DNA from: a virus
Length of the DNA stretch: 46,121 nt
Reading direction: 5' to 3' (one strand)
Virus record (IMG/VR): IMGVR_UViG_3300036945_000495
Coordinates: 1 to 46,121 of that record
Shown here piece after piece: positions 2,082-42,897 of this stretch. The position numbers were made by a program, and so were the translations under genes. Below the pieces are notes generated by a model. That model had not been told where the DNA came from. It worked only from the letters and a program-made list of their open reading frames with translations, and did no database searches. Numbering within the stretch: the stretch's first letter is position 1; every line of letters starts with the position of its first letter.

Positions 2082-2794
2082 TTAGAAAGGTATATCGTCA
2101 CAACTAATGCAATAATCCCAAGCTCCTTCAAAGTGATTATTGCAATCAGGTGTTAGACATTTCTTTAGCCGTTTCCCATTGGTTGACCTTGTTGTGCCAT
2201 TTGGTTCTTGATCCAATCAGGAACATCGTTAGCTTGAGGTTGTGCTACAGGTTGTACAGGCTGAAATTGTTGCACGGGTTGCGCCATCGCCTGATATACT
2301 GCCATTGGATCAACTACAGGTTGCACGGGTTGAAATGTAGGTTGTGCTACAGGTTGGAATTGTTGCACAGGTTGAACCTGTTGAATGACAGGTTGATTAA
2401 CTACAGTCTGTTGACGAATAGGATGAATACCCATAACTTCATTATACTTACCGTCTGGAGTTACAGTTACCTCTAACTCGAATTGGATGTTATGAAGTTG
2501 CTGAGTATCTTGAACTTGTAGAACACCCACCGCATGACAAATTGCGCTAAATCTACCACGTCCAATTTCAACTGCTTTAGCAGATGTATTTTCCCAATTC
2601 AAGTTAAACATAATGTTTCGCCCGTGATTATGACCACCGTTAATAATACAATTAAATTCGATGATTTTTCCCGCACCGTTAGCAGTAGGTTTAAGCTCCG
2701 ATTTAGCAATATATACATTATATTTTCCTGCTTCAACTGGAGATAACCCCGCGTTAGGTGTAACTTCTTGAGCGTTAAAATTAATACTAGCCAT
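2082..2794 (-). CDS. Predicted -1 frameshift product of the SSB gene, with Cys4 tail ending DDIPF
   Basis: Just before its stop the SSB frame reads ATG GGA AAC GGC TAA. G-GGA-AAC is an X-XXY-YYZ slippery heptamer (2171-2177 on the minus strand). A -1 slip continues as RLKKCLTPDC...DYCISCDDIPF and stops at 2082-2084. The added 28 or so residues hold two Cys pairs (CX4C and CX2C), as in a zinc ribbon. They finish with DDIPF, the acidic Phe-ending tip that in cellular SSBs binds partner proteins and that DUF669 proteins often share. AAGG lies about 9 nt upstream of the heptamer, like the dnaX stimulator. A 10-bp stem lies 26 nt downstream, further than usual. A real one-base indel in the assembly is the alternative. 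Confidence 0.62.
2108..2144 (-). other. 10-bp hairpin inside the SSB frameshift extension
   Basis: On the minus strand TGCAATAATC (2144-2135) is perfectly complementary to GATTATTGCA (2117-2108), with a 17-nt loop. The stem begins 26 nt downstream of the GGGAAAC heptamer. That is further than the usual 5-9 nt spacer of a stimulatory hairpin, unless a pseudoknot using the AAAG just after the stop codon brings it closer. Listed as a candidate stimulator only. Confidence 0.4.
2165..2794 (-). CDS. DUF669-type phage single-stranded DNA-binding protein, zero-frame product
   Basis: A 209-aa protein starting MASINFNAQEVTPNAGLSPV. Residues 1-125 resemble the DUF669 family, phage proteins that replace or act like SSB and are usually encoded beside a recombinase ATPase. 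Residues 125-200 are a low-complexity Gln/Pro/Val linker built from short QPVQ-type repeats, similar to the flexible linker of SSBs. In this frame the protein ends GQPMGNG, without the acidic Phe-ending tip; a -1 frame extension supplies it. The upstream neighbour is the Sak4-like ATPase, which supports a recombination/replication role. The start ATG follows an A/T-rich leader without SD. Confidence 0.82.
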   Translation of the reverse strand: MASINFNAQEVTPNAGLSPVEAGKYNVYIAKSELKPTANGAGKIIEFNCIINGGHNHGRNIMFNLNWENTSAKAVEIGRGRFSAICHAVGVLQVQDTQQLHNIQFELEVTVTPDGKYNEVMGIHPIRQQTVVNQPVIQQVQPVQQFQPVAQPTFQPVQPVVDPMAVYQAMAQPVQQFQPVQPVAQPQANDVPDWIKNQMAQQGQPMGNG

Positions 2795-2815: not shown

Positions 2816-3604
2816 TTATTTTGTTTGTGTTTCTAACAGAGCAGTCATAAAACCGCTCCAAGTCAATTCGCTAGGTTTTTTAATACCATAACGATTCTTT
2901 GCAAGATAAGCCTGAGAGGTTTCATAATGCAAAAATCTTTTACCTGTTTCTACAGCTCTATGACGCTTTTCGCCTTTTTCTGTTGCTTTTGTAGTTTCAG
3001 TTTCATTAGTAAATTTTTCGATCATAGCAAACGCTATAATATCGGCCCATTCTTTTAATAGTTCTAACGAACCATTTTGACCTTTAGGGCTATATAGCTT
3101 CATAGTCCATAAATCGTAAGGTTCTCCTAACGGATCATTAAAGAGAACTGCTTTTGTGTGACAGGTAATATTAACAAACTTACCCATACGATTGATACGA
3201 TCTAACTGTGTTAGAATTTTATTCCATTCGTTAAGCATTTCACCATAACCAGCACCATAACCACCGTTACATTTAGCGACTGAAGTTTTAGCATATTTTT
3301 TACATAACCAATCGCTAATTAATTGTTCTAACCAATCGGCACTATCTACATTTAAAGTATTATATAAGTTAGGGTTTTTCTCTGCATAGTTTAGCATAGC
3401 TTGGAATTCTTCATAAGTTTCTAACCTACTTTTACCCCTAACAACTAAAGCTCTACTGTGCAAACCCTTTAGACCTTCTTCACAAGGTAAGAATAAAGCT
3501 CCCGGTGCTCCATTAATGAAAGTGCTTTTACCTACTCCCTCGCCTCCATGAACTATCATTTTAGGAGGATATGCGTTATATGTATCTTTTATTTCCGGTG
3601 TCAT
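2816..3604 (-). CDS. Sak4-like RecA-fold ATPase (AAA_24), single-strand annealing recombinase
   Basis: A 262-aa P-loop protein. Walker A is GGEGVGKST (residues 20-28), followed by LPCEEGLKGL. A Walker B-like strand with an acidic pair occurs in NTLNVDSADW, and a CHTKAV sensor-like segment is near residue 150. This layout matches the AAA_24/Sak4 group of phage ATPases, which stimulate annealing together with their SSB, encoded next to it here. Its ATG overlaps the stop of the 39-aa membrane peptide gene as ATGA (3601-3604), indicating coupled translation. A general DNA-repair ATPase is the alternative. Confidence 0.8.
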   Translation of the reverse strand: MTPEIKDTYNAYPPKMIVHGGEGVGKSTFINGAPGALFLPCEEGLKGLHSRALVVRGKSRLETYEEFQAMLNYAEKNPNLYNTLNVDSADWLEQLISDWLCKKYAKTSVAKCNGGYGAGYGEMLNEWNKILTQLDRINRMGKFVNITCHTKAVLFNDPLGEPYDLWTMKLYSPKGQNGSLELLKEWADIIAFAMIEKFTNETETTKATEKGEKRHRAVETGKRFLHYETSQAYLAKNRYGIKKPSELTWSGFMTALLETQTK

Positions 3605-18669: not shown

Positions 18670-19053
18670 ATGAAAGATAAACTAAGGGCATTGACGTTAG
18701 GAGCAAGTAAAAAATTTGAACGTAAATCAGTTGAAATTGAAGGTTCTATTTTTGAAATACGACAACCTACTTTAAAAGAACGAGGTATGTTTCGTAAAAA
18801 AGCCATGACTATAGGGCAAAATGATAAAGGAGAAGCTACTACAGATTTTGATATATTTGCTTTTCAGATAGAAGCTGTATCCACATTAACTGTTGTTCCC
18901 GGCACTGATGAAAGGGTATTTGAAGAATCTGATAGAGAAGCGTTAGAACAATGCCCTTGTGGTGGTTGGTTTGATACTTTAGCAGCTATAGCTAGCGAGT
19001 TATGCAATGTTAAAGACGCTGATATAAAAAAGGATGGAACGGCGACAAAGTAA
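18670..19053 (+). CDS. Tail assembly chaperone, short form (gpG-like)
   Basis: 127 aa. The N-terminus has an A-rich leader and KLRALTLGASKKFERKSVEI; the body includes FEIRQPTLKERGMFRKKAMT, typical of G-type chaperones that bind the tape measure before tube assembly. It lies between the tube genes and the tape-measure gene, where this protein is expected. Near the end the frame reads ATA AAA AAG GAT, a slippery site that lets some ribosomes make the longer GT form. The zero-frame product ends KKDGTATK. Confidence 0.85.
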   Translation: MKDKLRALTLGASKKFERKSVEIEGSIFEIRQPTLKERGMFRKKAMTIGQNDKGEATTDFDIFAFQIEAVSTLTVVPGTDERVFEESDREALEQCPCGGWFDTLAAIASELCNVKDADIKKDGTATK

Positions 19054-36514: not shown

Positions 36515-37186
36515 TTAAAAAGGGTTAGGTATATATTGACGAATTAAATCACATTGAGCAGCCCAAGCAGCAGACCAAGCAACCTCAGCAGCAGCCCAAG
36601 CAGCAGCCCAAGCAGCAGACCAAGCAACCTCAGCAGCAGCCCAAGCAGCAGACTCAGCAGCAGACCTAGCAGCAGCAGCCTCAGCAGCCTCAGCAGCAGA
36701 CCTAGCAGCAGCAGCCTCAGCAGCCTCAGCAGCAGACCTAGCAGCAGACCTAGCAGCCTCAGCAGCAGCCCAAGCAGCAGACCTAGCAGACCTAGCAGCA
36801 GCAGCCTCAGCAGCAGACCTAGCAGCAGACCTAGCAGCCTCAGCAGCAGACCTAGCAGCAGACCTAGCAGCAGCCTCAGCAGCAGCCTCAGCAGCAGACT
36901 CAGCAGCAGAACATGGATTTTCTAACCAATTCTTTGCCGCTTGGATTGCTTCAAAAGGTCTTTTATCATTTTCATCTTTCCAATTAACTAAAGCTAATTC
37001 TGCAAATGCAATAGCTAATCTAACAGATTGTTCTTTTTCCAAGGGTTTATGTTTTTCTAAGATCCAAAATAACCAATCGGGACGTTTACAATTATTCCAG
37101 ACTTCCTCCATGGTTTCAAACTTTTCTGCATATTCTCTGCCGTCTTTACAAGGACTATATTTATTTATAAATTCTGTAGTTTTCAT
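36515..37186 (-). CDS. Ala-rich tetrapeptide-repeat protein with an immunity-protein-like N-terminus
   Basis: 223 aa. Residues 1-95 form a globular part: KDGREYAEKFETMEEVWNNC, KRPDWLFWILEKHKPLEKEQ, VRLAIAFAELALVNWKDEND. It resembles a putative-immunity domain found in several phage and bacterial genes, typically with Trp-rich DWxxWxL. From about 95 to 212 the chain consists of AAxA/S units with x = Arg, Glu, Trp or Val, which should form a long Ala helix. DNA of this part (36560-36905) is built of GCAGC-rich short repeats, prone to slippage, so copy number may vary between isolates. It ends QCDLIRQYIPNPF. Confidence 0.8.
   Translation of the reverse strand: MKTTEFINKYSPCKDGREYAEKFETMEEVWNNCKRPDWLFWILEKHKPLEKEQSVRLAIAFAELALVNWKDENDKRPFEAIQAAKNWLENPCSAAESAAEAAAEAAARSAARSAAEAARSAARSAAEAAAARSARSAAWAAAEAARSAARSAAEAAEAAAARSAAEAAEAAAARSAAESAAWAAAEVAWSAAWAAAWAAAEVAWSAAWAAQCDLIRQYIPNPF
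36560..36905. repeat. Ala-coding low-complexity tandem repeat
   Basis: Short units on the plus strand such as GCAGCAGACCTA, GCAGCCTCA and GCAGCCCAA recur in varied order. They encode the AAR/AAE/AAW repeats of the minus-strand gene. The plus strand also stays open here, but that is a by-product of the repeat. Confidence 0.9.
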
Positions 37187-41250: not shown

Positions 41251-42897
41251 TTAAAAAGGTTCGTCGTTTGTTTCACTTCCAAAAGCTGTATTTGTATAAT
41301 CAAAATCCATTATCTGAGCAAATTTTGTATCTAGTCTAACTCGTATATGAGTGCAGAAATAAAGCTCGTCGGTTCTCTGTAAAGCTTCTTTTGTATTTGT
41401 GGGTATATCTATACCTTGATCTATTGTTTTGCTAGCCTTTCTCCACCACTGTCTTGCTTTATGCCCTGTTGGTTCGGGATGCTCAAGACAAACCCAATGT
41501 TTAAAAAATCGCAATCCGCTTTGATAGGTTACGCAAATGCTGTCAGGTCTATCTTGTTTAGTATATAAATCATAAGTTATACCTATAACTTTAAAAATCT
41601 CTATTATGATTTCTTCTTTTCTTATAAGTTCATCTTGGCTTGCTTCAGATCTTATTTTTACAACTCTTGGAAACTCATAACCGCAATTAGAACATATTCT
41701 AACAGAAGCATGATTATACATACCGCAATTGTCGCAAATTTTTACAGGTGCTTCTCTTTTAACATCGCCTTTTTTAATTCTAGGAACGGGAATTATAGGA
41801 TCATTAATCGGCCCTAATCGTTTTGTATTAGCAGCGAAATCCATAACTAGACAATTCTTTTTTCCTTCTGCTGGTCTAGTGCCCCTACCCAACATTTGGA
41901 CCCACAAACTAGGCGATACTGTAGGTCTTAAAACTCCTATCATATCAATGCCGGGAAAATCTACACCTGTTGTTAGACAGTTATTATTAACTGCTGCTCT
42001 AATTTGTCCTGATTTCCACAATTTGAAATTCTCATTCCGTTCTTTGTTAGATAACTTTGAATGAATAGAAACACAAGATACACCATATTTATGATTTAAT
42101 AAACCTGCTATCCTGTCACAATGTTCGGTGCCTGTCGCAAAGATTAACCAATGTTTTCTGTCATAAGCTTGAACTATCATTTCTTCAATTGCTCCTGTTG
42201 TTATAGAGTCAATATTGAATCGTTCTTGCATTTCACTAACAACAAAATCACCGTTAATATGTAATCCCTCTACGTCTAACTCTTTTTTGGTTCTTAGAGG
42301 AATTAAAGGCGATAGATAACCTTCATCAAGTAATCTATTAAATGCAGCTATCCCTGTTATATCATAACAAAAATGAGTAAACAAACCGTCATTTGTTAGA
42401 ATACCTTGACCTAATCTGTAAGGCGTAGCTGTTAGACCTACTATAATTAAATAAGGATTATACCTTTTTAAATCTTCAATAAACTTACGATACATAGTCG
42501 AAGTTTTAGGACTAAGCAAATGAGCTTCATCTATCATTAAAATGTCTATCTTTTGAAAGATATTAGCTTTTTTATGTATAGACCCGATACCTGCATAAGT
42601 AATAGGATAACCGACATCTTTTCTATCAAGTCCACTGCTATATATTCCGGCAGGAGCGTTAGGCCATATACGAAGCAGAGTTTTATAATTTTGTTCTATC
42701 AATTCCTTGACATGGGTAGCCATTAAAATACGTTGACTAAAGCAATATCGTCTAAATATCTCCTGTATAAGTAATGCCAATACAAGGCTTTTCCCCGTTC
42801 CTGTCGGCATGGCTATAAGCGGATTTCCTATACCTCCATTAGCAAAGAAATCGAAAAAACTTTGCACGGCATCTGCTTGATAGTAACGAGGTTTCAT
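41251..42897 (-). CDS. SF2 DEAD/DEAH-type helicase with C-terminal zinc ribbon
   Basis: 548 aa. Motif I AMPTGTGKS (29-37), motif II DEAH (123-126), motif III GLTATPYR, motif IV-V YGVSCVSIHSKLSNKERNEN and LTTGVDFPGID, motif VI QMLGRGTRPAEGKK. After the helicase core the Cys pairs CDNCGMYNHASVRICSNCGY form a zinc ribbon, then a short domain ends the protein (WVCLEHPEPTGHKARQWWRK). Phage Rad25/UvsW-like helicases of this kind act in recombination and fork processing. The ATG overlaps the stop of the methyltransferase gene (42894-42897). Confidence 0.88.
   Translation of the reverse strand: MKPRYYQADAVQSFFDFFANGGIGNPLIAMPTGTGKSLVLALLIQEIFRRYCFSQRILMATHVKELIEQNYKTLLRIWPNAPAGIYSSGLDRKDVGYPITYAGIGSIHKKANIFQKIDILMIDEAHLLSPKTSTMYRKFIEDLKRYNPYLIIVGLTATPYRLGQGILTNDGLFTHFCYDITGIAAFNRLLDEGYLSPLIPLRTKKELDVEGLHINGDFVVSEMQERFNIDSITTGAIEEMIVQAYDRKHWLIFATGTEHCDRIAGLLNHKYGVSCVSIHSKLSNKERNENFKLWKSGQIRAAVNNNCLTTGVDFPGIDMIGVLRPTVSPSLWVQMLGRGTRPAEGKKNCLVMDFAANTKRLGPINDPIIPVPRIKKGDVKREAPVKICDNCGMYNHASVRICSNCGYEFPRVVKIRSEASQDELIRKEEIIIEIFKVIGITYDLYTKQDRPDSICVTYQSGLRFFKHWVCLEHPEPTGHKARQWWRKASKTIDQGIDIPTNTKEALQRTDELYFCTHIRVRLDTKFAQIMDFDYTNTAFGSETNDEPF

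Follow-up and report, generated by a model that had tools for sequence, protein, structure and literature searches.

A putative programmed −1 frameshift in a phage single-stranded DNA-binding protein gene, with a conserved cysteine-rich tail and an acidic IPF tip in the second frame

Does a phage single-stranded DNA-binding protein (SSB) gene give one product or two? The question is raised by a gene in an IMG/VR virus record, the whole 46,121-base stretch of which was analysed here and is referred to as the window. The gene runs into a slippery heptamer just before its stop codon, and beyond this point the −1 frame stays open and encodes a short tail.

The SSB gene and its second reading frame

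The features at the 3′ end of the gene are as follows:

2165–2794, minus strand: DUF669 single-stranded DNA-binding protein, zero-frame product of 209 aa, ending P-D-W-I...QPMGNG and a stop
2165–2167, minus strand: zero-frame stop codon TAA, read from the sequence
2171–2177, minus strand: slippery heptamer G_GGA_AAC, in phase, read from the sequence; the same in a second lineage (loci L001/L034/L035)
2178–2191, minus strand: conserved stretch CAAGGTCAACCAAT leading up to the slip site, with AAGG in it
2082–2171, minus strand: −1 frame extension RLKKCLTPDCNNHFEGAWDYCISCDDIPF, 29 codons and a stop, with a Cys4 segment and an acidic D-D-I-P-F terminus
2085–2099, minus strand: C-terminal DDIPF tip, from translation, resembling the bacterial SSB-Ct (DDDIPF)

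The zero-frame protein matches PF05037 (DUF669) in Pfam with an E value of 7.7e-15 and PHROG 6015, 'single strand DNA binding protein', with an E value of 1.9e-36. In the AlphaFold2 model the SSB core has a pLDDT of 81, and its top match in the PDB is the ssDNA-binding protein PrgE (E 2.5e-5). By profile match and OB-type fold the protein is a DUF669 phage SSB. To our knowledge, ssDNA binding is known for no DUF669 SSB besides that of phage HK620. For the HK620 protein the binding has been reported (PMC5928155).

A P-x-W motif, VPDWI, lies 5′ of the slip site in the zero frame. DUF669 relatives that have no tail mostly stop shortly past P-x-W, as seen in Microcystis, Vibrio, Rhizobium, Alteromonas, Pseudomonas, Providencia and other phages. 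Because the window protein retains the P-x-W tip of its relatives, the 209-aa product appears to be a full DUF669 SSB rather than a truncated form. The initial annotation had described this product as ending without the acidic, Phe-ending tip. Such a tip is present only in the −1 frame, but the zero-frame protein carries a P-x-W tip of its own.

The sequence GGGAAAC starts ten bases 5′ of the SSB stop and is followed by GGC and TAA, leaving one codon between heptamer and stop; this confirms the canonical X-XXY-YYZ heptamer that had been proposed, in phase, at the 3′ end of the gene. On mammalian ribosomes few heptamers slip more readily than G_GGA_AAC, and the g-t gene of the archaeal virus HCTV-1 is listed as shifting at this site (PMC5009743). 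A point against the site is that an A-site AAC shifts less than AAG in E. coli (PMC5009743), although the phage may have another host. Translation of the −1 frame gives GKRLKKCLTPDCNNHFEGAWDYCISCDDIPF, and as originally claimed this frame encodes four cysteines and ends exactly at DDIPF (...CISCDDIPF, with the stop at 2082). Tandem slippage would create the junction ...PMGN-RLKK... and add 29 aa, for a predicted product of 237 aa.

Within the tail the cysteines form two pairs, C-x4-C and C-x2-C, which are conserved in both lineages and probably make up a zinc-binding knuckle. The tail gave no Pfam match to zinc-ribbon families at E values up to 10, and in PHROG only a weak match (0.28) to a family without an assigned function. 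The AF2 model of the tail was poor, with a pLDDT of 57.6 that is too low for use. A separate small Cys-rich ORF of 53 aa lies downstream of the SSB gene at 1736–1897 on the minus strand; it has no Pfam match and is 58% identical in the second lineage.

Conservation in a second lineage

Searching viral contigs with the SSB returned 25 loci. The closest belong to a second lineage (G002), found on the separately assembled IMG/VR contigs 3300046778_000032 and 3300049490_000046. The nearest loci, L001 and, on the other contig, L002/L034, show no differences over the stretch that was compared and are counted as one lineage. Identity to the window SSB is about 66–67%. In this lineage the −1 frame reads GKRIIKGNICLTPGCNRDTDSKMYKYCIHCDEDQIPF up to its stop and contains a homologous Cys4 tail, RIIKGNICLTPGCNRDTDSKMYKYCIHCDEDQIPF, with the end DEDQIPF. 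Common to both tails are the four cysteines, CLTP.CN, YCI.CD and the final IPF.

The two tails differ at 33% of nucleotides, and the indels between them are 9, 3 and 6 nt long, all multiples of three. Sorted by codon position of the −1 frame the differences fall 7/7/15, an excess at third positions, and pN/pS is 0.66. Under random substitution at the observed divergence, a tail amino acid identity this high is expected with P=0.004 and the retention of all four cysteines with P=0.010. Since the second lineage keeps the heptamer together with a homologous tail, since the indels are of codon length and since amino acid identity and cysteines are kept beyond random expectation, the comparison argues that the tail is translated.

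The slip site itself is conserved at the nucleotide level. Heptamer, phase and distance to the stop are identical in the second lineage, and CACAAGGTCAACCAAYGGGAAACG is nearly identical in both. Over the last 10 SSB codons, 8/9 third bases are the same in the window and G002, against 68/129 in the core. Conserved residues use the same codon in 11/13 cases from the P-D-W motif to the stop, compared with 39/84 in the SSB core (P=0.01). The test of synonymous conservation suggested by the initial annotation is therefore positive. At the heptamer, a Met codon (ATG) in the window is replaced in G002 by a Thr codon (ACG), with the first G of the heptamer preserved; ACG accounts for only 9.9% of Thr codons.

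How widely is this arrangement distributed? The viral contig collection was scanned for GGGAAAC-NNN-TAA followed by Cys-x4-Cys-Asn, giving 76 matches, among which the architecture was present only in the known relative. No third lineage with both heptamer and tail was found in IMG/VR, in the phage records searched or in one genome-contig scan, the last of which gave one distant DUF669 match, at the level of the SSB. A further wide pattern scan for a third lineage gave 0 matches, with a gap range that also missed G002. The tail was not found in phages by tblastn, nor in a scan of viral contigs, for which the query is too short for such a match to be confirmed. It is absent from the DUF669 genes examined, in viral contigs and 13 phage records. 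Homologues with the tail in frame, which the initial annotation had proposed to look for, were not seen among those sampled; the tail-less relatives stop after P-x-W. On the genes compared, the tail is an addition limited to the window and the second lineage among the DUF669 genes examined.

Several other explanations of this arrangement have to be weighed. The −1 frame could be a separate small gene whose translation begins within the SSB gene, at the TTG of position 2216, to give 44 aa in the window and 54 aa in G002, with the free Cys4/DDIPF peptide binding SSB partners alone. Both lineages have a TTG at matching positions and a frame that is open upstream, which would fit such a gene. However, TTG starts are rare, at 2/42 and 1/42 of the longer ORFs, and the −1 residues further upstream seem to be no more than a shadow of zero-frame conservation. 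A separate gene also leaves unexplained why the heptamer is conserved in phase a single codon ahead of the stop, rare ACG codon included. We consider a separate gene unlikely.

It is also possible that the tail is a relic, left when an ancestral fusion of SSB and tail, at first in frame, was put out of frame in the common ancestor, and now decaying. The lineage-specific occurrence of the tail, missing from DUF669 relatives, is compatible with decay, as is the pN/pS of only 0.66. Against this, the four cysteines, the IPF end and the codon-length spacing of the indels have been kept despite the divergence of SSB and tail given above, and an in-frame ancestor was not found in the relatives sampled. 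A relic is, in our estimate, distinctly unlikely.

A sequencing or assembly error, in which the real gene would be a single frame joining SSB and tail, could look alike in one genome if a base near the stop were extra or missing. In the diverged relative, too, the tail is out of frame at this heptamer, in two separate contigs and with tail indels that are all multiples of three, and an indel of this kind, which the initial annotation had named as the outcome that would overturn its reading, is very unlikely and is not borne out. Polymerase slippage usually needs a long homopolymer run, and although transcriptional slippage would result in the same proteins, the probability that it makes the long form is close to negligible, GGGAAAC having no such run and fitting the tandem-slip heptamer exactly.

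Programmed −1 ribosomal frameshifting is in our judgement very probably used by the SSB gene. Sequence comparison of the two lineages establishes the heptamer, its phase, the conserved −1 coding and the conserved tip.

Candidate stimulators and the capacity to shift

The initial annotation had pointed to two elements that might stimulate the shift, a downstream stem and an upstream AAGG. The first is part of a larger structure:

2082–2170, minus strand: candidate stimulatory RNA fold over the whole tail, including an apical 10-bp stem, 2144–2135 / 2117–2108

The perfect 10-bp stem, with arms TGCAATAATC and GATTATTGCA, is real, but it starts 26 nt 3′ of the heptamer, compared with the usual spacing of 5–9 nt, and does not hold up as a correctly spaced stimulator. 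Folding the whole tail gave a minimum free energy of −22.2 kcal/mol (z −3.0) in the window and −23.8 kcal/mol (z −2.4) in G002, more stable than 98.8% and 98.4% of synonymous recodings, respectively. A few compensatory pairs surround the conserved TGCAATA/TATTGCA core of the fold in these two sequences. The outer helix of the larger fold begins about 4 nt past the heptamer in the window and 8 nt past it in G002, and differs between the lineages, and other parts of the SSB gene, upstream, fold about as stably. Because the outer helix varies and comparably stable folds lie upstream in the gene, a role of the whole-tail fold as a frameshift stimulator is suggestive only.

The AAGG is likewise present, and conserved in both lineages. 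Its proposed role as a dnaX-like stimulator is doubtful, because Shine-Dalgarno motifs are not enriched upstream of the genes of either phage (3 observed against 2.95 expected, and 4 against 2.58). An element of this type is known from bacterial cases such as dnaX, but −1 frameshifting does not depend on it. Both phages have A-rich leaders without such enrichment, suggesting a host not reliant on Shine-Dalgarno leaders, for example Bacteroidota.

A second frameshift gene of a familiar kind is present in the window:

18670–19053, plus strand, with a −1 extension to 19185: tail assembly chaperone (PHROG 344), with an in-phase A_AAA_AAG at about 19026

The −1 extension of the chaperone begins KKGWNGDKVRQAVFFLAEKLGKFAW and the gene is conserved in G002 (81% and 91%). 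This is an ordinary lambda G/GT frameshift. In both phages the chaperone gene has an in-phase poly-A slip site and a −1 extension that is conserved, so −1 frameshifting probably takes place in their host.

Elsewhere in the window, 36515–37186 on the minus strand encodes a protein with long Ala/Ser/Arg/Glu low-complexity repeats (SAAEAAARSAARSAA...), and the opposite strand of this region holds an open Ser/Pro-rich frame.

In lambda-type G/GT, a −1 slip on X_XXY_YYZ near the stop adds a partner-binding C-terminal extension to a minority product (PMC5009743). The SSB gene resembles this system in that it belongs to a tailed dsDNA phage, has an X_XXY_YYZ heptamer near the stop and would gain a C-terminal extension. 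It differs in that G/GT serves tail assembly, whereas the window SSB would serve DNA replication and recombination, and its extension would be short, a Cys4 segment ending in a tip like the SSB-Ct.

The dnaX gene, which makes tau and gamma, offers a second comparison, as here too two isoforms of a replication protein come from one gene by −1 frameshifting. In dnaX the shift leads to the shorter form and a Shine-Dalgarno-like stimulator is used. In contrast, the shift in the window SSB would lead to the longer form, and use of a Shine-Dalgarno element is without support. The dnaX system is treated in PMC5009743.

A possible dose of docking tips

Both tails end in a free C terminus of acidic residues followed by I-P-F, CDDIPF in the window and CDEDQIPF in the second lineage. 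This resembles the bacterial SSB-Ct (MDFDDDIPF), likewise a free C-terminal acidic-I-P-F; the likeness is one of sequence, and the window tip sits on a DUF669 phage SSB and would depend on frameshifting. We drew the comparison of the tip with the SSB-Ct from two studies (PMC5928155, PMC10238739), the first of which concerns an SSB with a similar neighbour. The genes in the window that bear on tip partners are:

2816–3604, minus strand: Sak4-like (AAA_24) ssDNA annealing protein (PHROG 124, E 1.6e-38; Pfam AAA_24, E 1.7e-33)
41251–42897, minus strand: RadD-like helicase (NCBIfam RadD, E 4.5e-67, below its cut-off), ending ...NDEPF

The Sak4-like gene lies directly upstream of the SSB gene, and its orthologue in G002 is 68% identical. 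In HK620, the DUF669 SSB HkaK is also encoded beside sak4, and its NDYPPF tip is needed to stimulate Sak4 (PMC5928155). Deleting these six residues lowered Sak4 recombineering about 10-fold, and the authors compare NDYPPF with the DDDIPF of E. coli SSB (PMC5928155). We checked the HK620 sequence and found the tip in frame. The two proteins are thus alike in family, in their place beside sak4 and in an acidic tip ending in PF. They differ in that the HK620 tip is in frame on every subunit, whereas the window tip would be reached only by frameshifting and stands behind a Cys4 segment; unlike HK620, the zero-frame SSB of the window ends in a P-x-W tip.

The RadD-like helicase was considered as a receptor for the tip. 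E. coli RadD binds the SSB tip via Arg21, Arg49 and Arg145 (PMC10238739). The phage protein has Ala, Ser (beside a gap) and Ile at these positions, and we rejected it as a receptor that uses the E. coli pocket. Its orthologue in G002 is 85% identical and ends IDEPF. Of the helicases in other DUF669 phages (loci L083, L084 and L088), some end EIPF and others have no such end; in the phages with EIPF helicases the SSBs end PPWAR and a few residues. Acidic PF ends recur in this gene neighbourhood, perhaps with a common receptor. In one further phage (L082, G004) the RadD-like helicase is matched through one in-frame TGA, which may be an indel, an error or recoding.

How might the SSB gene work? 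We infer slippage in a proportion of ribosomes, with the following course. While Gly-tRNA is paired to GGA and Asn-tRNA to AAC, the ribosome would slip one base back onto GGG AAA, beside the stop codon and ahead of structured RNA. Most ribosomes would probably terminate at once and release the 209-aa SSB with the family's normal P-x-W end. A minority would slip past the stop and produce the 237-aa form (...QPMGN-RLKKC...), with its putative Cys4 knuckle, presumed to bind zinc, and a free D-D-I-P-F terminus. In mixed oligomers of the two forms the number of docking tips would thereby be limited, and these tips may recruit the neighbouring Sak4 annealase, host SSB partners or both. By analogy with the systems above, we put the chance that the tip has a recruitment role at about even. 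The fuller proposal is that frameshifting sets the dose of docking tips, most subunits coating ssDNA while a fixed minority bearing DDIPF on a Cys4 module recruits recombination or replication partners, and here too we see the arguments for and against as balanced.

The mechanism is a known one, and the gene is one for which full-text searches of the open-access literature turned up no previous account of frameshifting in a phage SSB, in agreement with the initial annotation. This would be the first SSB gene to use programmed frameshifting. The C-terminal tips make SSBs into hubs, and the number of tips per assembly is usually probed with engineered mutants. If the proposal is true, a phage in which translation fixes the ratio of tipped to untipped subunits would offer a natural experiment on tip dosage, and programmed frameshifting in dsDNA phages would reach from the virion-assembly genes into the replication and recombination module. 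It would also mean that functional C termini are missed by ordinary gene callers.
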